The notes under the pieces: model-generated
Database searches by the model: none
What the model saw: only the letters and a program-made list of their open reading frames with translations
What the model was told of the DNA's origin: nothing
In this document: positions 2,356 through 33,288 of the stretch, in pieces
Layout of the letters: each line of letters opens with the position of its first letter
How positions within the stretch are numbered: position 1 is the first letter of the stretch
Assembly (NCBI RefSeq): GCF_010672385.1
Contig: NZ_JAAHGT010000028.1
Span: forward strand, 1-33,519
DNA length: 33,519 nucleotides
Source of the DNA: Okeania sp. SIO2F4
GTDB taxonomy: Bacteria; Cyanobacteriota; Cyanobacteriia; Cyanobacteriales; Microcoleaceae
Reading direction: 5' to 3'
Program-made: the position numbers and the translations under genes

Positions 2356-3655
2356 TTGAAAGCTAGATATCGATATCGCATATATCCTAATCATATCCAA
2401 ATAACGCGCATTAATCAACTATTTGGATGCTGTCGATATGTTTGGAATCAAAGTTTAGCATATTGTAATCAATTGTATGTTTCAGGACAAAAGAAGCCTT
2501 CATATACTGATTTAACTAAGCAATTCATAACACAAGCTAAGAAAGAATTAGTTTGGCTAAAAGAAGTAGCTTCTACTCCATTACAACAATGTTTAAAAGA
2601 CTTAGACCAAGCTTACAAAAACTTTTTTAATAGTTGTTCTGGAAAACCCAAGGCTATTAAAGTTAAACATCCTAAGTTCAAAAGCAGAAAGTCTAGACAG
2701 ACTGCTAGATTTGTAGGAGCTAATTACAAGGTTGGTCAAGATAAACTATATCTTCCCAAAGTAGGCAAGATTAAAATAGTTTGGTCGAGGCCATTAGCTA
2801 GTCAGCCTACTTCTGTAACTATCATCAAAGATTCAGATAATAGATATTTTGCTAGCTTTGTAGTAGAAACTTTACCAGAACCATTACCTAAAACTGAAAA
2901 TTCGATTGGTATTGATTTAGGTATTAGTACATTTGCTACATTGAGTAATGGAGACAAAATTGAAGGTCCCAAACCACTCAAACAAAACCTTAAGAAATTA
3001 GCTAAATTTCAACGTAAGCTGGTTCGTACTGAAAAAGGCAGTAAACCTATACGAAAGACGTAGATTAAGAGTAGCTAAACTTCATGCTAAAGTCAAAGAC
3101 ATTCGTACAGATTTTCTACACAAACTATCAACTGATTTAGTCAAAAAATACGACACTATCGTATTAGAAGATTTAAATGTTTCCGGTATGGTTAAAAACC
3201 GTAAATTATCTAAAACAATTAGTGATTTAGGGTGGAGAAAATTTAGGATTTTAACTGAGGCTAAGTGCGAGAAATATGGTAAAGAATTTAGAGTCATTGA
3301 TAGATGGGAACCCACTTCTCAAAAATGCAGTTGTTGTGGATTCAAAGGAGGTAAAAAAGAACTGAATGTTAGGGAATGGACTTGTTTGAGTTGTGGGGCA
3401 CACCATGACCGCGATATAAATGCTGCTGTCAATATTTTAGAAGTTGTTCAACCGAAAACCAAGGTTAAAGCAGTTAAAGAAACAGTAGCAGAAAATCCGA
3501 TTCAACTATCACTTTTTGAAGAAGTCGCCGAGGGTCAACGGTCGATTATTTATCGGACATGGAGCCGACGTAATTCTACCCGTAAAAAGGTAGTTGATGG
3601 CAATGATGTGTCAACCCGCCCTGAGTTTTTCAAGCAGCTTAGTCTGTTTGATTAA
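2356..3655 (+). pseudogene. tnpB: TnpB (IS200/IS605 OrfB), frameshifted
   Basis: RNA-guided nuclease of the TnpB family, broken by one frameshift. The first frame runs from the TTG at 2356 (KARYRYRIYPN, the usual TnpB N-terminus) through RuvC-I (IGIDLGIS) to a stop at 3061-3063. The second frame picks up at about 3047 (LYERRRLRVAK) and carries RuvC-II (IVLEDLNV), the zinc finger CSCCG...CLSCG, RuvC-III (HDRDINAAVNIL) and a C-terminal tail. Joining the frames by skipping one base near 3046 restores about 432 residues, the normal length. All three acidic catalytic positions survive, so the break looks recent. No TnpA transposase is nearby. The element sits in the cobalt locus between the DUF1636 gene and cobW. 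Sequencing error at the short run near 3043-3047 cannot be excluded. Confidence 0.88.
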
Positions 3656-4693: not shown

Positions 4694-5740
4694 ATGAGTG
4701 CTAAAATTCCAGTTACTGTAATTACAGGTTTTCTCGGTAGTGGTAAAACTACGACAATTCGACATTTCTTACAAAATAATCAAGGTCGTCGTATTGCTGT
4801 TTTAGTTAATGAATTTGGGGAGGTTGGTATAGATGGAGAGTTACTACGTTCTTGTCAAGTTTGTGATGATGAAGATGTTAATAATAATATTGTTGAACTA
4901 ACAAATGGTTGTCTTTGCTGCACTGTGCAAGAAGAATTTTTTCCGACTATGCAAGAACTATTAAAACGTCGAGAAAAAATTGATTCTATTTTGATAGAAA
5001 CTTCTGGGTTGGCATTACCAAAACCTTTGGTACAAGCATTTCGTTGGCCGGAAATTAAGACTTCTGCTACGGTTGATGGAGTTGTTACTGTTGTTGATTG
5101 TGAGGCGGTGGCAAATGGTAGTTTGGTTGGAGATATTGATGCTTTGGAAGCTCAACGTCAAGCTGACCCAAATTTAGACCATGAAACTCCTATTGAGGAA
5201 TTATTTGAAGACCAGTTAGCTTGTGCTGATTTGGTTTTATTAACTAAGGTTGATATGGTGGATGAAGTTACTTCTGATAAAGTGCAAAGTTGGTTAAAGG
5301 AACAGTTACCTAAAACTGTCAAAATAGTTCCTTGTATTGGAGGAGAAATTAATCCAGATTTATTGTTGGGTTTTAATGCTGCTGTTGAAGATAATTTAGA
5401 TTCTCGTCCTAGTCACCATGATACAGAGGAAGAACACGAACATGATGATGAAATTAATTCTGTAAATTTAATTTTGGAGCAAGAATTTGAACCGAAGGAG
5501 TTAGTTGAAAAGTTGAAGGGTTTAGTGGCAAATTATGAGATTTATCGGATTAAAGGTTTTGTCGCAGTGCCAAATAAGTCTATGCGTTTGGTTTTGCAAG
5601 GGGTGGGCGATCGCTTTGATTATTTCTATGACCGTCTCTGGCAAAAAGAAGAGATTAGGGAAACTAAGTTGGTGTTAATTGGTCGTTATCTCAAAGTAGA
5701 AAACATTCAGTTGGAGTTGGGTAATAATTTATCTAATTAA
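4694..5740 (+). CDS. cobW: CobW-like GTPase / metallochaperone (COG0523)
   Basis: G3E-family GTPase of 348 residues. Walker A is GFLGSGKTT (12-20). The CXCC metal motif is GCLCC (72-76). The Walker B region is SILIETSGLALP (98-109), and TKVD (184-187) stands for NKxD. A His/Asp/Glu-rich linker lies at 241-252 (HHDTEEEHEHDD). The C-terminal CobW_C domain covers about 255-345. The CXCC motif binds Zn or Co in the family, and CobW members are proposed to deliver cobalt for cobalamin synthesis. The riboswitch-hupE and DUF1636 genes upstream fit that role, although a zinc role is possible for other COG0523 proteins. Its 3' third is copied in tandem immediately downstream. A hairpin terminator follows the stop at 5752-5772. 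Confidence 0.9.
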   Translation: MSAKIPVTVITGFLGSGKTTTIRHFLQNNQGRRIAVLVNEFGEVGIDGELLRSCQVCDDEDVNNNIVELTNGCLCCTVQEEFFPTMQELLKRREKIDSILIETSGLALPKPLVQAFRWPEIKTSATVDGVVTVVDCEAVANGSLVGDIDALEAQRQADPNLDHETPIEELFEDQLACADLVLLTKVDMVDEVTSDKVQSWLKEQLPKTVKIVPCIGGEINPDLLLGFNAAVEDNLDSRPSHHDTEEEHEHDDEINSVNLILEQEFEPKELVEKLKGLVANYEIYRIKGFVAVPNKSMRLVLQGVGDRFDYFYDRLWQKEEIRETKLVLIGRYLKVENIQLELGNNLSN

Positions 5741-5751
5741 GTGAAATATTT

Positions 5752-5776
5752 TATCCCCTTTTTTCGGGGATATTTA
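5752..5776 (+). terminator. Hairpin terminator of cobW
   Basis: TATCCCC and GGGGATA form a 7-bp stem around a T-rich loop, followed by TTTAAT, 12 bases after the cobW stop. The downstream tandem units keep only the right half of this hairpin (CTTTTCGGGGATATTTAAT), which helps place the recombination joints. Confidence 0.6.
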
Positions 5777-5785
5777 ATATATATA

Positions 5786-6055
5786 ATGTTTGATTCTCGG
5801 CATTTAATTTTCGCGCAAGAGTATAAACCGAAGGAGTTAGTTGAAAAGTTGAAAGGTTTTGTGGCAGTGCCAAATAAGTCTATGGGTTTGGTTTTGCAAG
5901 GGGTGGGCGATCGCTTTGATTATTTCTATGACCGTCTTTGGCAAAAAGAAGAGGTTAGACAGACTAAGTTGGTTTTAATTGGTCGTTATCTCAAAGTAGA
6001 AAACATTCAGTTGGAGTTGGGTAATAACTTATCTAATCTTTTCGGGGATATTTAA
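5786..6055 (+). CDS. CobW C-terminal fragment, tandem copy 2
   Basis: An 89-residue open frame starting MFDSRHLIF. From residue 14 it copies the CobW C-terminal domain (PKELVEKLKG...VENIQLELGNNLSN) and ends LFGDI. Compared with cobW residues 265-348, twelve residues (277-288, LVANYEIYRIKG) are missing in frame, as if 36 bases were deleted between two AAGGGTTTA/AAAGGTTTT sites. There is no GTPase part, so it cannot hydrolyse GTP. It could only be a free CobW_C-like domain, or be untranslated. The ATG has no good ribosome site; GGGGA lies about 16 bases upstream. An in-frame GTG at 5741 is less likely as a start. It is nearly identical to the next unit, so the duplication is recent or the copies are kept homogeneous. 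Confidence 0.6.
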   Translation: MFDSRHLIFAQEYKPKELVEKLKGFVAVPNKSMGLVLQGVGDRFDYFYDRLWQKEEVRQTKLVLIGRYLKVENIQLELGNNLSNLFGDI

Positions 6056-6063
6056 TATATATA

Positions 6064-6333
6064 ATGTTTGATTCTCGGCATTTAATTTTAGGGGAAGAGT
6101 TTGTACCGAAGGAGTTAGTTGAAAAGTTGAAAGGTTTTGTGGCGGTGCCAAATAAGTCTATGGGTTTGGTTTTGCAAGGGGTGGGCGATCGCTTTGATTT
6201 TTTTTATGACCGTCTTTGGCAAAAAGAAGAGGTTAGACAGACTAAGTTGGTTTTAATTGGTCGTTATCTCAAAGTAGAAAACATTCAGTTGGAGTTGGGT
6301 AATAACTTATCTAATCTTTTCGGGGATATTTAA
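6064..6333 (+). CDS. CobW C-terminal fragment, tandem copy 3
   Basis: An 89-residue frame, MFDSRHLILGEEFVPKELVE through to LFGDI, offset exactly 278 bases from copy 2. It carries the same 12-residue deletion relative to cobW and the same upstream sequence (half terminator, then an ATAT run before ATG). The few differences from copy 2 sit mainly in residues 9-15 (ILGEEFV for IFAQEYK) and at one Tyr-to-Phe change. The frame is intact, which argues for recent origin, gene conversion or selection. Whether it is expressed is unknown. Confidence 0.6.
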   Translation: MFDSRHLILGEEFVPKELVEKLKGFVAVPNKSMGLVLQGVGDRFDFFYDRLWQKEEVRQTKLVLIGRYLKVENIQLELGNNLSNLFGDI

Positions 6334-6341
6334 TATATATA

Positions 6342-6664
6342 ATGTTTGATTCTCGGCATTTAATTTTAGGGGAAGAGTTTGTACCGAAGCAGTGACTAGA
6401 AAAGTTGAAAAAAATTAATGCTAAATTCTCAGATTTATCGGATTAAAGGTTTTTTCGTAGTGCCAAATAAGTCTATTGATTTTGTTTTTGAGGAGTTAGA
6501 GCGCCCTCTGATTATTTTTATGAAAACTGATAACTGATAACTTTTGATTGATATGACAATCTCTGCCAAAAAGTAGAGGTTAGGCAAATTCAATTAGTTT
6601 TTATTGGTCGTTGTTTACCCATAGAAAAAATTCAGTCATATTTTTCTTTTTTGTAGATATATAA
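6342..6664 (+). pseudogene. CobW C-terminal fragment, decayed tandem copy 4
   Basis: It begins with the same ATG TTT GAT TCT CGG as copies 2 and 3 but hits TGA after 17 codons (GAAGCAGTGA). It keeps the segment CAGATTTATCGGATTAAAGG, which is present in cobW and missing in copies 2 and 3. It is therefore not a degraded version of the shortened units. An ACTGATAACTGATAAC short repeat interrupts it at about 6526-6541. Later sequence (GTTTTTATTGGTCGTTG) still aligns with the cobW end. Confidence 0.75.
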
Positions 6665-6733
6665 ATGTTTGATTATCGGCATTTAATTTTAGAGGTCGAA
6701 ATTTCAACTAAAAGAGTTAAAAGAGTTAGTTGA
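6665..6733 (+). pseudogene. CobW C-terminal fragment, truncated copy 5
   Basis: A stub beginning ATGTTTGATTATCGGCATT. It matches the start of the 278-bp units for about 45 bases, then passes through AAAAGAGTTAGTTGA into the first unit of the next tandem array at the HIP1 site (6734). Confidence 0.65.
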
Positions 6734-7799
6734 GCGATCGCACTTATTTTTTTCTTTCTACTTTAATTTTTTTTGCGTTGAATAAAAAGTCTAGTACAGG
6801 GCCGAACGACCCCCATTAACATGATACTATCAGAATTAGTTTGAAAATGCAACCTAATTTCCCTTTCTCCCCAGGCAAATTTTAGAGCTTCAGAAAATGA
6901 CAATTTGTGTCTGTCAACGATCGATTTTTCTGTTCTCATCATATAGAGGTAGGGTTGGCACATTTCTCTGGATTAACTAACAAGAGTGAGTAATTACTCT
7001 TTGGGTATCTCAGAGGATTTACTTTTCCTTTCTTAAGAGCGATCGCGCTTATTTTTTTCTTTCTACTTTAATTTTTTTTGCGTTGAATAAAAAGTCTAGC
7101 GTATGGGCGAGCATCTCCCAATAACATAATAGTATCAGAGTTTATTTGAGCATGCAAGCCGATTTTCCTTCCCACGCGGGCAAATTTTTTAGAGCTTTCA
7201 AAAATGATAATTCTCATTATATAGAGATAGGGTCAGCATATTTCTATGGATTAACTACAAGACTGAGTAATGACTATTTGCCTTGAGAGGATTTACTTTT
7301 CCTTTCTTAAGAGCGATCGCGCTTATTTTTTTCTTTCTACTTTCATATTTTTTGCGTTGAATAAAAAGTCTAGTGTATGGGCGAGTATACCCCAATAACA
7401 TAATAGTATCAGAGTTTATTTGAGCATGCAAGCCGATTTTCCTTTCCACAGGGGCAAATTTTTTTAGAGCTTTAGAAAATGAAAATTTGTGTCTGTCAAC
7501 GATCGATTTTTCTGTTCTCATCCTATAGAGGTAGAGTCGGCACATTTCTCTGGATTAACTAACAAGAGTGAGTAATTACTATTTGGGTATCTCAGAGGAT
7601 TTACTTTTCCTTTCTTAAGAGCGATCGCGCTTATTTTTTTCTTTCTACTTTCATATTTTTTGCGTTGAATAAAAAGTCTAGTGTATGGGCGAGTATACCC
7701 CAATAACATAATAGTATCAGAGTTTATTTGAGTATGCAAGCCGATTTTCCTTTCCACAGGGGCAAATTTTTTTAGAGCTTTAGAAAATGAAAATTTGTG
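6734..7799. repeat. Tandem array of about 305-bp units (three and a half copies)
   Basis: Units begin at HIP1 octamers at 6734, 7039, 7313 and 7621, with spacings of 305, 274 and 308. The second unit is shortened by about 33 bases, and the last is cut at about 7799. Each unit shares the T-rich block after the octamer, TTGCGTTGAATAAAAAGTCTAG, a CCCCAATAACATAATAGTATCAG block and (except unit 2) GTCAACGATCGATTTTTCTG. Open frames of 66-96 codons on the minus strand run across unit joints (IGLHAQINSDTIMLLGYTRPYTRLFIQRKKYE type). I recognise no family in them, and the frame changes between units, so I do not call genes. Confidence 0.85.
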
Positions 7800-7970
7800 A
7801 TTGTACTTTAGTAATCTGGGTTTTGTAAGGTAGTGAAGCTTAACCTACTGCTAATTTTTGTCTTGATTTTTTCAGAAATTGAAAAGAATCAGAGAATCTT
7901 TCGACAAACCTACTAAGTAGAACAAATTTCTCCTCAGTTTCATAAATTTCAAATTAGCAGAAATTAAAAT

Positions 7971-8459
7971 TTACTGTTTGATATAAGGTGATAGTTCATC
8001 CCACAAATTCGGAAAACTAGCTTTAAAAGAATCAGGTTTAGCTATTTCCATATCTTGATACTCAAAACCTGGAGCAACAGATTCTCCCAGTAAACCAAAT
8101 TCACCTTCTTCAAGTATTGCTGCTTTCCAACAATCTTTTGGTACTAATAGTTGAGGAGTGTGACCTTTAGCAACATCAAAGCCAAGTTTAAATTTTGACA
8201 ATTTTCCTTGTGGGTCAACAATTAAATAAGTTATGGGAGAACCAATGTGAAAATAATGAATAACATCTGATTCATTCTTATGAAAGTGGTTAATTGGGTG
8301 GTCATCAGTGAGCAGATAATAAATGGAAGTAAGCAACTTTCTTTCACCTCCTTCTCTATCAGTATTTACAGTTAGATCGGAACGGTAGGTTTCTTTAAAA
8401 TAACCTCCTTCGATATGTTTAACTAGAGATAATTTTTCAATTATATTTTGCTTGTTCAT
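7971..8459 (-). CDS. Cupin superfamily protein, DUF985 (cupin_5)
   Basis: Protein of 162 residues matching the DUF985/cupin_5 pattern: IEGGYFKETYRSD near the N-terminus, TSIYYLLTDDHPINHFHKNESDVIHYFHIGSPI in the middle, and PQLLVPKDCWKAAILEEGEFGLLGESVAPGFEYQDMEIA near the end. This is a double-stranded beta-helix fold related to yeast YML079w, with no established reaction. The HFHKNESDVIHYFHIG stretch supplies the usual cupin histidines and an acidic residue. AGAGG lies 11 bases upstream of the ATG at 8459. It is transcribed towards the tandem arrays. No partner gene is close, so its substrate cannot be inferred. Confidence 0.85.
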   Translation of the reverse strand: MNKQNIIEKLSLVKHIEGGYFKETYRSDLTVNTDREGGERKLLTSIYYLLTDDHPINHFHKNESDVIHYFHIGSPITYLIVDPQGKLSKFKLGFDVAKGHTPQLLVPKDCWKAAILEEGEFGLLGESVAPGFEYQDMEIAKPDSFKASFPNLWDELSPYIKQ

Positions 8460-8725: not shown

Positions 8726-9480
8726 ATATTTGACAAAATACTTTAGTAGTTCTATGGAGATAGTTAGGCAGGTCGGTATAACTTCTTTCTAGGAGAAATA
8801 TTCCGACCAAAACTGCTACTTGTTTATCATTACTAAAGTTTTATGAATCTACTAATACTCCATAGGGAAGGGGAGAATTGTCTTTATCACCCCCAATTTC
8901 AAACCAGTAACGTCTATGAGCTTCAACAAACTCCTCTCGACTGATGGAACCTGACTTATCTAAGTCAATACTATCAAAAGCTTGGTCAGCATGTTCAGGC
9001 TGTTGTGAGCCAGTGTATACTGCTAGGTACTTTCGGTACTCTTCGCGAGATATTTGCCCAGAATTATCGGTGTCAATGATATCGAAGAAAATTTCGTTTT
9101 TACGTCTGGCTACTTCAAGTATTTTATCTGGTGATTCAATCAAGGATACAGTCTTTGCAACTTTAGCAATCAAATCTTCTTCGGTAATTCGAGTGGTACT
9201 ATCAACTGGTTCCCCTCCAGCAATGAAATACTGAAATAGAGAATGGCACATCTCGCGAATTTCTTCATTCTTTGATGAATCATTTTGAAGTTGAATTAAA
9301 CGATTTGCAATTTCTTCAAAGTCGGAGAGGGTTAAAACCCCATTTTGATCGACATCCATGAGTTTGAAGTAAGTCTTCATTCTGGTACGCCAAACACTGG
9401 ATGATAAAAATTGTTCTGGAGACATTGTTACTAATAATTCAAGAAAACTATATGAATGTCTTGATATTATCATTATCTAT
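8715..9480. repeat. Segmental duplication, copy 1 (EF-hand gene plus flanks)
   Basis: The gene, about 55 bases upstream (TCAAGAAAACTATATGAA block) and about 125 bases downstream (GTCAAAATAATAT to TTGTTTATCATTACTAAAG) match 9796-10711. This copy has the uninterrupted CTTGTTTATCATTACT site (about 8819-8834), where the other copy carries a MITE. Confidence 0.85.
8841..9425 (-). CDS. EF-hand calcium-binding protein, calerythrin-like, paralogue 1
   Basis: Protein of 194 residues with three good EF-hand loops: D24-VDQNGVLTLSD35, D118-TDNSGQISREE129 and D154-LDKSGSISREE165. A degenerate second hand (about 73-85) gives the four-hand layout of calerythrin and sarcoplasmic calcium-binding proteins, which act as Ca2+ buffers or sensors. 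I start at the ATG at 9425 because the paralogue at 10074-10655 begins with the same MSPEQFLSSSVW; a start 16 codons earlier (9473) is open but not conserved. There is no signal peptide. Both paralogues and their flanks are part of one segmental duplication. The neighbours give no clue to a partner. Confidence 0.85.
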   Translation of the reverse strand: MSPEQFLSSSVWRTRMKTYFKLMDVDQNGVLTLSDFEEIANRLIQLQNDSSKNEEIREMCHSLFQYFIAGGEPVDSTTRITEEDLIAKVAKTVSLIESPDKILEVARRKNEIFFDIIDTDNSGQISREEYRKYLAVYTGSQQPEHADQAFDSIDLDKSGSISREEFVEAHRRYWFEIGGDKDNSPLPYGVLVDS

Positions 9481-9559
9481 ACAGAACGAAGAATTCATTA
9501 ATTGATAATGGATAATTACAAGAAGGTTAAAACCGTTACGGAATTGAAGATTAAGGAAA

Positions 9560-10050: not shown

Positions 10051-10073
10051 GTTTATCATTACTAACTAAAGTT

Positions 10074-10655
10074 CTATGAATCTACTAATACTCCATAAGG
10101 AAGGGGAGAATTATCTTTTTCATCGCCAATTTCATACCAGTAGAGTCTATGAGCTTCGACAAATTCCTCACGACTGATGGAACCTGACTTATCTAAGTCA
10201 ATACTATCAAAAGCTTGGTCAGCACGGTCAGGTTGTTCTACTCCCGTGTATACTGCCAGGTACTTCCGGTACTCTTCGCGGGATATTTGTCCAGAGTGAT
10301 CGGTGTCTATAATATCGAAGAAGAGTTCGTTTTTGTGCCTAGATAATGCAAGTGCTTTATCTAGTTCAGTTAAGGATACGATCTTTGCAACATTAGCAAT
10401 CAAATCTTCTTGGCTAATTCGAGTGTTACTATCAACTGGTCTCCCTGCAGCCATAAAATTTTGAAATAGAGAATGACACATCTCGCGAATTTCTTCGTTT
10501 CTTGATGAATCATTTTGAAGTTGAATTAAACGATTTGCAATTTCTTCAAAGTCGGAGAGGGTCAAGACGCCATTTTGATCGACATCCATGAGTTTGAAGT
10601 AGGTCTTGATTCTGGTACGCCAAACACTGGATGATAAAAATTGTTCTGGAGACAT
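10074..10655 (-). CDS. EF-hand calcium-binding protein, calerythrin-like, paralogue 2
   Basis: Protein of 193 residues, closely similar to the product of 8841-9425. It has the same start (MSPEQFLSSSVWRTR), the same three EF loops (DVDQNGVLTLSD, DTDHSGQISREE, DLDKSGSISREE) and the same C-terminus (NSPLPYGVLVDS). The variable part is the helix between hands two and three (SLTELDKALALSRH for SLIESPDKILEVARRK), where one residue is lost. Ca2+-binding positions are unchanged, so both copies should bind calcium. Upstream sequences are also conserved for about 55 bases, so the promoters may be shared in kind. A MITE lies between this gene's stop and its ancestral downstream sequence, 24 bases from the gene. 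Confidence 0.85.
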   Translation of the reverse strand: MSPEQFLSSSVWRTRIKTYFKLMDVDQNGVLTLSDFEEIANRLIQLQNDSSRNEEIREMCHSLFQNFMAAGRPVDSNTRISQEDLIANVAKIVSLTELDKALALSRHKNELFFDIIDTDHSGQISREEYRKYLAVYTGVEQPDRADQAFDSIDLDKSGSISREEFVEAHRLYWYEIGDEKDNSPLPYGVLVDS

Positions 10656-10721
10656 TTCTACTTATAAGTCAAGAAAACTATATGAACGTCTTGATATTAT
10701 CATTATCTATAACGATTTAGT

Positions 10722-13985: not shown

Positions 13986-14144
13986 TTTTTGCTTTTTAAT
14001 TGTATCAGGGGAGGGAAATAATTTTAATCATAATCGTGATTAGTTTAACTGTAAATATTCAGCTATTTTTGCGTTTTAATTGTATCAGAGGAGGGAAATA
14101 ATTTTAATCATAATCGTGATTAGTTTAACTGTAAGTATTCAGCT
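13986..14144. repeat. 80-bp direct duplication upstream of the ABC1 kinase gene
   Basis: Units 13986-14064 and 14066-14144 are nearly identical (TTTTAATTGTATCAG, GAGGGAAATAATTTTAATCA, GTGATTAGTTTAACTGTA blocks). Each contains the short inverted repeat AATCA-TAATCG-TGATT. They lie in the promoter-side region of the minus-strand gene, so they could duplicate a regulatory site. Confidence 0.8.
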
Positions 14145-18182: not shown

Positions 18183-19451
18183 CTATTTAGACTTTCTCTT
18201 TCGTCGAGTCGGCTTATCTGTTTGGGTTTCCCCATCCAGACAGAGGCCAGTCTCTCCAGAGATGTTACTTTCCCCGCGCCCCGGGGTAGTTGATAGTTGC
18301 TTGAGAGCAGATTGGAGAATATTAATTGCAGCATTTTCGTCCCTATCTGCTTCATAACCACAGCGGGGACATTTATGAGTTCTAGTGCTTAAAGTTTTGC
18401 TGACTTTTTTCCCACAGTTTGAGCAGTTTTGAGATGTATTGAATGGCTCAACCGCGATAACCGGAACTCCATAAATTCTGCCAAAATATTCCAACCATTC
18501 CCTAAATTTGTACCAAGCTGCATCATTAATTGATTTGGCCAGATGATGATTTTTAACCATGTTACGCACTTTTAGGTTTTCTATCGCTACCAAGTCGTTA
18601 GACCGGATGACGCGCTGCGCTGCTTTGCAAGCCCAATCGTTACGTCTGCGTGATACCTTAAGATGCGTTATACCCAACCGATTCCTTGCTTTTATCCTGT
18701 TTTTGCTACCTTTTTTAGTACGAGATAAACGCTTCTGTAGCTTTTTGATTTGGCGCTCACCCTTTCTAAAAAACCGAGGATTATCGACTTGATTACCTTC
18801 AGAATCGGTGTAGAAATGATTTAAACCTACATCTAATCCCGTTTGTTTTCCTGTTAATTCTTTTTTTTCCTCCCTAGTGTGGTCAATCAAAAACTGGGCA
18901 TAATAGCCATCATGCCTTCTAATTATTCTGACTCGTTTAATTTGTTTGAGTTGATAATAATGAAGGTCTCGACTTCCCCAAAGTTTAAAAGTACCAGCCT
19001 CAAATTTATCAGTTAACACCAAATAACGTCTATCTTCTGAAAGTTTCCAACCCGAAGTTTTGTACTCTACTGATGCTCTAACTTGATACTTTTTAAACTT
19101 AGGATACCCTCTCTTGGTGCGCGTTCCCTTGCGACTGCCGTCGTCGCGGGGTCGCACCGCTTTTTTACTTGGCACTTTAGCTTTACAGTTTTTGTAGAAT
19201 CTTTCAATAGCTGCCCAAGCCCTCTCAGCATGAGCTTGTCTAGCCATTGAATTCAGCTTTTTTGCCCAGGGAAAATCGAGATTATCTGCTAAGATTTTAC
19301 AGTATTTGTAGGCATCATTACGACTCTTAACCTGCCCGTCAATCCATGCTTTGATGATGCTATTGCGGACAAAAAGTCCCGTACGAATAGCCTCATCCAG
19401 CTTTTCGTATTGGACTGTTTCTCCTTCTAATTTCATCTCATAAACCAGCAT
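18183..19451 (-). CDS. tnpB: TnpB RNA-guided nuclease (IS200/IS605 OrfB)
   Basis: Intact 422-residue TnpB. The N-terminal recognition part starts MLVYEMKLEGETVQYEKLDE. RuvC-I is TGLDVGLNHFYT with the catalytic Asp. RuvC-II is LVAIENLKVRNM with Glu. The zinc finger is CSNCG...CPRCG. RuvC-III is DRDENAAINIL with Asp. A basic Thr/Lys/Arg tail (TRRKRKSK) overlaps the region expected to template the omega RNA. TnpB cleaves DNA next to a TAM under omega RNA guidance and favours retention of its element. It is not close in sequence to the frameshifted copy at 2356-3655, whose N-terminus and spacing differ, so the two are separate lineages. Confidence 0.93.
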   Translation of the reverse strand: MLVYEMKLEGETVQYEKLDEAIRTGLFVRNSIIKAWIDGQVKSRNDAYKYCKILADNLDFPWAKKLNSMARQAHAERAWAAIERFYKNCKAKVPSKKAVRPRDDGSRKGTRTKRGYPKFKKYQVRASVEYKTSGWKLSEDRRYLVLTDKFEAGTFKLWGSRDLHYYQLKQIKRVRIIRRHDGYYAQFLIDHTREEKKELTGKQTGLDVGLNHFYTDSEGNQVDNPRFFRKGERQIKKLQKRLSRTKKGSKNRIKARNRLGITHLKVSRRRNDWACKAAQRVIRSNDLVAIENLKVRNMVKNHHLAKSINDAAWYKFREWLEYFGRIYGVPVIAVEPFNTSQNCSNCGKKVSKTLSTRTHKCPRCGYEADRDENAAINILQSALKQLSTTPGRGESNISGETGLCLDGETQTDKPTRRKRKSK

Positions 19452-21777: not shown

Positions 21778-21813
21778 CGGGAAATTAGGCTTGCATCCTT
21801 AAACCAACTGTAG

Positions 21814-22368
21814 TATTATAAAATCAGTAGGAGTCGTTCGCCAATACTCTAGACTATTTATTCAACACAAATTAGATTCAAAAAAACAAAAAAAATCATG
21901 CTTGTGTATCACAAAATCAATATTCTGTCAAAACAGCAAAAAACAGGCATAGAAAAAAAGTCATTTTGAGCAAAGCAAATTTAGGGAAAAATAAACCAAA
22001 ACAACGGCAGAATAGGAAGGAACAGCCATAAAAATCAATCAAGACATAAAATGCCCTAACTATACTCTATGTTCACAGTATCACAAAATCGAAAAAAAGC
22101 GCTAAAAATATTGAAACTTCGTTAACCAACTCAGAAAAAATTCCCTATTTAACAAGCAGGCAAAAATAGTAAAATTTAAAATATTAAAACCAAAAACAGA
22201 AAACCATAACTTTACCTAATTTTCAAACCTGAAAACTAAAAAAGCTGATAACTGCAAAAGCTGATAACTGATAACTGAATTTAACCCCCCAAAACAAAAG
22301 ATTATCAACCAAGGCAAAAATGAAAACCAAAAACATTGAATACAATAGCTTTTAATCCCCTTTGATAA
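21814..22368. other. Gene-free, plus-strand A-rich stretch
   Basis: 555 bases with strong A over T bias on the plus strand (many AAAAA and CAAAA runs) and an AGCTGATAACTG short repeat near 22240-22278. No frame survives. It could be a decayed region downstream of the M61 gene. Confidence 0.5.
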
Positions 22369-32858: not shown

Positions 32859-33017
32859 ATAAATAATATCATGTCTCATTGAATAGTTATAAATAACAAG
32901 GGAGGAGTCAGGAGTCAGGAGTCAGAAGGAAATCAGAAAATATGCAAGGATTGTCGTGCCGGAATGCTCCGCAGACAGCTATTAGTAGTCAGCTCTTAGC
33001 TTTTGAATGAATAAATC

Positions 33018-33060
33018 AGGACTTACGCCAATGTACTATATATAGAGTTTAAAAACTATT
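33018..33060. repeat. MITE family B, copy 3 (right half deleted)
   Basis: It starts AGGACTTACGCCAATGTACT and breaks off at AAAAACTATT, at the centre of the palindrome, joining directly to GAATAGTTATAAATAACA. Deletion between short ACTAT/ATAGT-like repeats is likely. Confidence 0.8.
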
Positions 33061-33198
33061 TGAATAGTTATAAATAACAAGGGAGGAGTCAGGAGTCAAG
33101 AGTCAGAAGGGAATCAGAAAATATGCAAGGATTGTCGTGCCGGAATGCTCCGCAGACAGCTATTAGTAGTCAGCTCTTAGCTTTTGAATGAATAAATC

Positions 33199-33288
33199 AG
33201 AACTTACGCCAATGTACTATATATAGAGTTTAAAAACTATAACGTTATAGTTTTTAACGCTATATCTGTGGTCTGGTGCGTAAGTCCG
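33199..33288. repeat. MITE family B, copy 4
   Basis: AGAACTTACG...CGTAAGTCC with an intact central palindrome. It sits in the third tandem unit. A further end, AGGACTTACG, begins at 33504 and runs off the window. Confidence 0.85.

Follow-up and report, generated by a model that had tools for sequence, protein, structure and literature searches.

The cobW locus and the array behind it

The window, meaning the whole 33,519-nt stretch of DNA analysed here, is contig C714 of the 10.18 Mb draft genome of Okeania sp. SIO2F4 (1512 contigs), a marine filamentous cyanobacterium whose genus relatives include Hydrocoleum sp. CS-953, Okeania SIO3I5 and Trichodesmium MAGs. It carries an intact copy of the vitamin-B12 gene cobW, in which the match to the CobW_C domain spans residues 254-342. 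Upstream of cobW are a cobalamin riboswitch (248-416) and genes for HupE/UreJ and DUF1636 proteins. Between the DUF1636 gene and cobW, and splitting this riboswitch-hupE-DUF1636-cobW neighbourhood, sits a gene broken into two ORFs (2356-3655), which we take to resemble an IS200/IS605-type tnpB; a whole relative may be present at 18183-19451 on the minus strand.

Directly behind cobW, the 3' end of the gene recurs as a series of head-to-tail units (Table 1). Tandem Repeats Finder reports the repeat at 5761-6410 with a period of 278 and a score of 1209, and the 186-nt bodies of u2 and u3 are 95.2% and 93.5% identical to cobW; this score and these identities rule out a chance origin. The arrangement, part-gene copies placed head to tail beside an intact parent, is that of a partial tandem duplication.

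Table 1. Features of the cobW region, in window coordinates
Feature	Coordinates	Strand	Description
cobW, intact parent	4694..5740	+	TIGR02475 equivalog, 490.7 bits (cut-off 332.1); PF02492 and PF07683 matches
Terminator-like hairpin of cobW	5752..5772	+	complete copy only behind cobW
u2, 278 bp	5786..6063	+	open 89-codon ATG frame, 5786-6055; lacks a 36-nt segment of cobW; half-terminator at end
u3, 278 bp	6064..6341	+	open 89-codon ATG frame, 6064-6333; deletions as in u2
u4, decayed	6342..6663	+	36-nt segment present; 4 differences from u3 in the first 69 nt
u5, unit-start stub	6664..6735	+	junction shared with CS-953

The initial annotation had described two open short units, a decayed fourth unit and a fifth reduced to a stub, and this architecture was recovered in full. 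The gap that it placed at residues 277-288 in u2 and u3 is real; the MAFFT alignment sets it at 275-286, and the exact edges can be shifted by a few residues, as KLKG and RIKG, two similar stretches, lie on its flanks. The match of u4 to cobW is interrupted by five TGA and three TAA codons, and u5 gives way near its end to an unrelated tandem array of ~305 bp. The claim that each short unit took half of the cobW terminator is also borne out: a 25-nt sequence from its 3' half is found in identical form at 5761, 6039 and 6317. The predicted hairpin is stable only behind cobW (-11.3 kcal/mol, against -1.2 behind the units); the terminator search returned this one hairpin, against a mean of 1.3 in shuffled sequence. 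Past the TAA of cobW the frame continues without a stop into u2 (ORF 5741-6055), and the units are not fused to each other in frame, as a period of 278 is not divisible by 3.

A wrong copy number would be an obvious concern in a draft of 1512 contigs, as short reads struggle with 278-bp tandem copies. However, u2 and u3 differ at 9 sites, u4 is decayed, and relatives that were assembled separately show traces of the same array. Assemblers are likelier to collapse such repeats than to invent diverged copies, and we give an assembly artefact only the slimmest chance.

Traces in relatives and the age of the array

To place the array in time, cobW genes of eight relatives were compared with their own downstream DNA. 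Two of the eight, SIO3I5 and CS-953, carry decayed traces and six do not, the DNA searched in these six amounting to 69 nt in MAG_R03, 565 nt in SIO2B3 and 1500-3997 nt in the others; an open unit was found in none of the eight. SIO3I5 has a single decayed unit directly 3' of cobW, with the 36-nt segment kept and several stops (80% over 102 nt, E=2e-20; E=7e-22 against its own cobW), and it possesses the same unit-start junction as the array in the window. CS-953 retains the stub (78% over 90 nt, E=4e-16), with unrelated DNA between stub and cobW. Because this junction is common to these genomes and absent from cobW itself, the first duplication predates the split from SIO3I5 and CS-953, the branching order of which with this species is not resolved by the cobW tree. 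The segment-bearing decayed unit of SIO3I5 and the stub of CS-953 also uphold the earlier proposal that several rounds of duplication occurred and that the short units are not ancestral to the decayed one. The array is thus of old origin, with a recent re-amplification in this lineage, and the open frames are a sign of recency, the only one of three readings offered in the initial annotation to find support.

The units themselves are uneven in their resemblance to cobW. Measured against cobW of the window, the start of u2 has 5 differences in 52 sites and its body 9 in 186; for cobW of SIO3I5 the same regions have 1 in 52 and 20 in 186 (Fisher p=0.028 against the u2 pattern). At sites 5654, 5659, 5660 and 5674 the units share the states of SIO3I5, and cobW of the window those of CS-953. 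From these few sites, the starts of the units appear old and their bodies more recently copied; exchange between cobW and the array has probably happened. Such exchange is what would be expected if the units were kept as a reservoir that rewrites the C-terminus of cobW by gene conversion, the second of the three readings. The mosaic is, however, explained with cobW as donor, and the state private to the units at R298 is not found in cobW, which has Arg here and in 80 of 80 relatives. A donor short of 12 residues would, moreover, usually harm cobW. With no positive evidence in its favour, we regard a reservoir function as very improbable.

Scraps of CobW_C coding sequence occur elsewhere in the genus. 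In SIO3I5, a second place (L109 5613-6042; G003:C519:99613-100042) contains them twice, interspersed with other sequence in a tandem unit of 310 bp, and one was seen in a T. erythraeum MAG (G001:C25:17222-17302).

Residue loss, constraint and coding capacity

The remaining reading holds that u2 and u3 are expressed as free, shortened CobW_C domains, which would modulate CobW or bind a partner. Their frames are open from ATG to stop, and they score above the PF07683 cut-off of 22 (41.8 bits for u2 and 42.2 for u3), albeit with partial coverage (profile positions 28-90 and 32-90 of 94). They clearly descend from the CobW_C domain of CobW GTPases, of which YjiA (1nij) is a solved relative, but they lack the GTPase domain and 12 residues, and an invariant Arg is replaced. 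Specifically, R298, which is Arg in 80 of 80 cobW relatives, is Gly in both units, and R285, equally invariant, is deleted together with E282, I283 and Y284 (kept in 78, 79 and 79 of the 80). None of these 80 relatives lacks half or more of residues 277-288. A single-sequence AlphaFold2 model of u3 alone reached a mean pLDDT of 50, too low to be informative about independent folding.

The substitution patterns are mixed. Between u2 and u3 there are 2 synonymous and 7 non-synonymous changes, a dN/dS of 0.89, as expected under neutrality, while the comparison of the units with cobW gives 0.23 and 0.16, and seven pairs of cobW genes give 0.08-0.45. A ratio near one, which the initial annotation named, together with the absence of a transcript, as the mark of neutral debris, was therefore observed between the two units and not between unit and cobW. 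Together, R298G, the loss of E282-R285 and the ratio of 0.89 indicate relaxed constraint in the copies; the unit-to-cobW values are less clear. Strictly unit-specific changes in the body number two non-synonymous and two synonymous (two and four when ambiguous sites are included), too few to exclude weak constraint. The non-synonymous changes are fewer than pure neutrality predicts, which we ascribe to the constrained changes of cobW itself and to recent re-copying, in numbers too small for proof. The open frames are unsurprising in themselves, since a simulated frame often survives this degree of change, with a probability of 0.63 after 9 and 0.53 after 12 random substitutions (substitutions only, without indels).

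Further observations disfavour expression. A promoter-like match on the plus strand was not found between 4888 and 6800, which includes the DNA ahead of the units, and the relatives compared have no open unit. Across 59 genomes of the family, the CobW_C matches listed sit in frames of at least 155 aa; u2 and u3 themselves lie beyond this listing. The loss of invariant residues, the near-neutral divergence of the two units and the lack of a promoter match make a free CobW_C domain a very unlikely product of this array.

Gene-end duplications across the genome

To establish whether cobW is exceptional, a sample of 66 loci was drawn from this genome by contig number, most of them on long contigs; together they span 1,085,836 bases and carry 504 ORFs of 150 aa or more. 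This 1.09 Mb contains 10 tandem duplications of gene ends, comprising 8 tails and 2 heads. In four of them (L161, L192, L202 and L215) the second copy lies inside another ORF of at least 120 aa and the pair may be tandem paralogues, leaving 6 in a stricter count; in one further case (L167) the second copy is 1.4 kb away. Two more were found on nine contigs picked for earlier matches, and SIO3I5 yielded 5 in 20 stretches (364,079 bases), 17 of them on contigs met in earlier searches. By comparison, there were none in Microcoleus vaginatus (20 stretches of 20 kb, 244 ORFs) and none around cobW in 73 further cyanobacteria (593,258 bases, 397 ORFs). Per ORF, this amounts to 10 of 504 against 0 of 641 in 0.99 Mb of controls (p=0.00026), or 6 of 504 against 0 of 641 in the stricter count (p=0.007). 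Tandem arrays with a period of at least 100 show a similar distribution: 48 here (44 per Mb) and 37 in the SIO3I5 sample (102 per Mb), against 6 in Microcoleus (15 per Mb) and none at the other cobW loci. The contrast is provisional in magnitude, because one control is a single Microcoleus genome and the other, being drawn from the surroundings of cobW, is gene-rich by design. On these samples, gene-end duplications are frequent in this lineage, and the duplication process is not special to cobW. A preference for tails over heads was considered and dropped, as the 8 to 2 among loci chosen by number became 2 to 3 in SIO3I5 and 1 to 1 on the contigs picked for matches.

Among the 10 duplications, that at treZ (malto-oligosyltrehalose trehalohydrolase, TIGR02402) is of the same design as the cobW array and its nearest counterpart; the treZ tail is present in three tandem copies of 272 bp (L199 10353-11138). 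Each unit comprises the last 236 nt of the gene with its stop and a spacer; copy 2 is open (97.9%) and copy 3 has one stop (94.1%). Matches to the treZ tail in relatives, two in CS-953 (92% and 79%) and one in SIO3I5, point to the same turnover as at cobW, in which ageing copies degenerate and fresh ones appear. A JmjC-domain gene (L174) also has tail copies, in part open and in part broken.

Separately, Hormoscilla sp. GUM202 has a copy of its cobW tail ~1.9 kb 3' of cobW (L068, approximately 6901-6996; 76 nt at 98.7%), which begins at a GCGATCGC-rich spot and extends to the stop. The fragment falls outside the definition used in the count above, but its presence means that gene-end copying is not confined to this lineage.

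A model for the origin of the array

Since unrelated genes of this genome show the same copying of their ends, harmless debris is the most likely explanation: from the sequence comparisons, the array is very probably the neutral remains of tandem duplications that repeatedly spanned the 3' end of cobW. Tail copies first arose behind cobW before the split from SIO3I5 and CS-953, as the shared junctions show, and then decayed. Recombination between cobW and an old copy, suggested by the mosaic identity, may subsequently have placed a fresh body behind an old unit start. Two deletions would have shortened this unit: one of 36 nt between imperfect direct repeats of 15 nt, and one of net 22 nt, through which half of the terminator was lost along with the stop codon. 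The shortened unit was then duplicated as a 278-bp block, as seen in the window. Unequal exchange or template slippage is the presumed mechanism, later exchange adding copies and mutation breaking them. Selection would not remove such duplications, because each event leaves one complete cobW, and the frames of u2 and u3 would be open because these copies are young. Neutral debris of this kind would explain why the decay is graded, why units are partial, why half-terminators are present and why unrelated genes show the same feature.

Genes are known to undergo partial tandem duplication with later decay of the copies into pseudogenes, and the cobW array on its own is an ordinary decaying example. 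It shares with such systems the head-to-tail gene-end copies, the intact parent, the graded decay and the old copies common to relatives; it differs in the several rounds at one gene and in the many unrelated genes affected in one genome. The array matters as one of several gene-end duplications, a lineage-wide pattern more interesting than cobW. Trichodesmium genomes, the named records of which belong to the GTDB genus of the window, are described as 'repeat rich', with ~40% noncoding DNA and many pseudogenes, and their duplicated gene clusters are attributed mainly to transposases, retrons and group II introns (PMC4649490, PMC9950141). The available sections of these accounts make no mention of tandem gene-end arrays, nor did we recognise a description of them among the literature titles and abstracts searched. 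In a plasmid collection, four records matched, each covering 8-9% of the query. Frequent gene-end duplication offers a testable mutational source of noncoding DNA in these diazotrophs. A more speculative extension, to which we assign a modest chance well short of even, is that a candidate recombination or replication process specific to Trichodesmium, Okeania and Hydrocoleum keeps tandem-amplifying gene ends of ~100-400 bp, the parent being re-copied as older copies decay, and that it is a main source of both the unusual noncoding DNA and short-lived, open single-domain frames. Annotators should be wary of short frames that show homology to the end of the upstream gene, since these are probably debris.

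Other repeats in the window

The ~305-bp tandem array directly behind the cobW stub is noncoding and unrelated to cobW (6732-7795 and 21781-21868, minus strand). It features a conserved core of ~90 nt, GTTGAATAAAAAGTC...GGGCGA...GAGGATGCAAC. This genome has 32 copies of the core, usually in arrays, at 14 loci, 7 of which were picked for matches. Matches to the core were found in 7 of 7 genomes of the genus and at none of the 73 other cobW loci. RNAalifold returned no consensus structure for 21 non-redundant copies of the 32, and Rfam gave no match within 5400-8000 up to E=1. An integron attC site was considered for the core, whose outer heptamers resemble what we take to be the attC GTTRRRY and its inverse; it was rejected, as complementarity does not extend inward by eye and the RNAalifold result offers no support. 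The elements are spaced at 261-308 bp in 15 of 17 cases, and 12 of 62 arrays with a period of at least 100 fall at 250-299 bp. We considered a link between this spacing and the 278-bp period of the cobW units and make no such claim, because several of the 250-299-bp arrays are that very element in contigs chosen for it.

Elsewhere in the window, two tandem copies each were seen at 32879-33240 (181 bp, 98%) and 13986-14144 (80 bp, 96%). The neighbouring genes at 8822-9481 and 10051-10711 on the minus strand, presumably encoding EF-hand proteins, are 88.6% identical over 664 nt.
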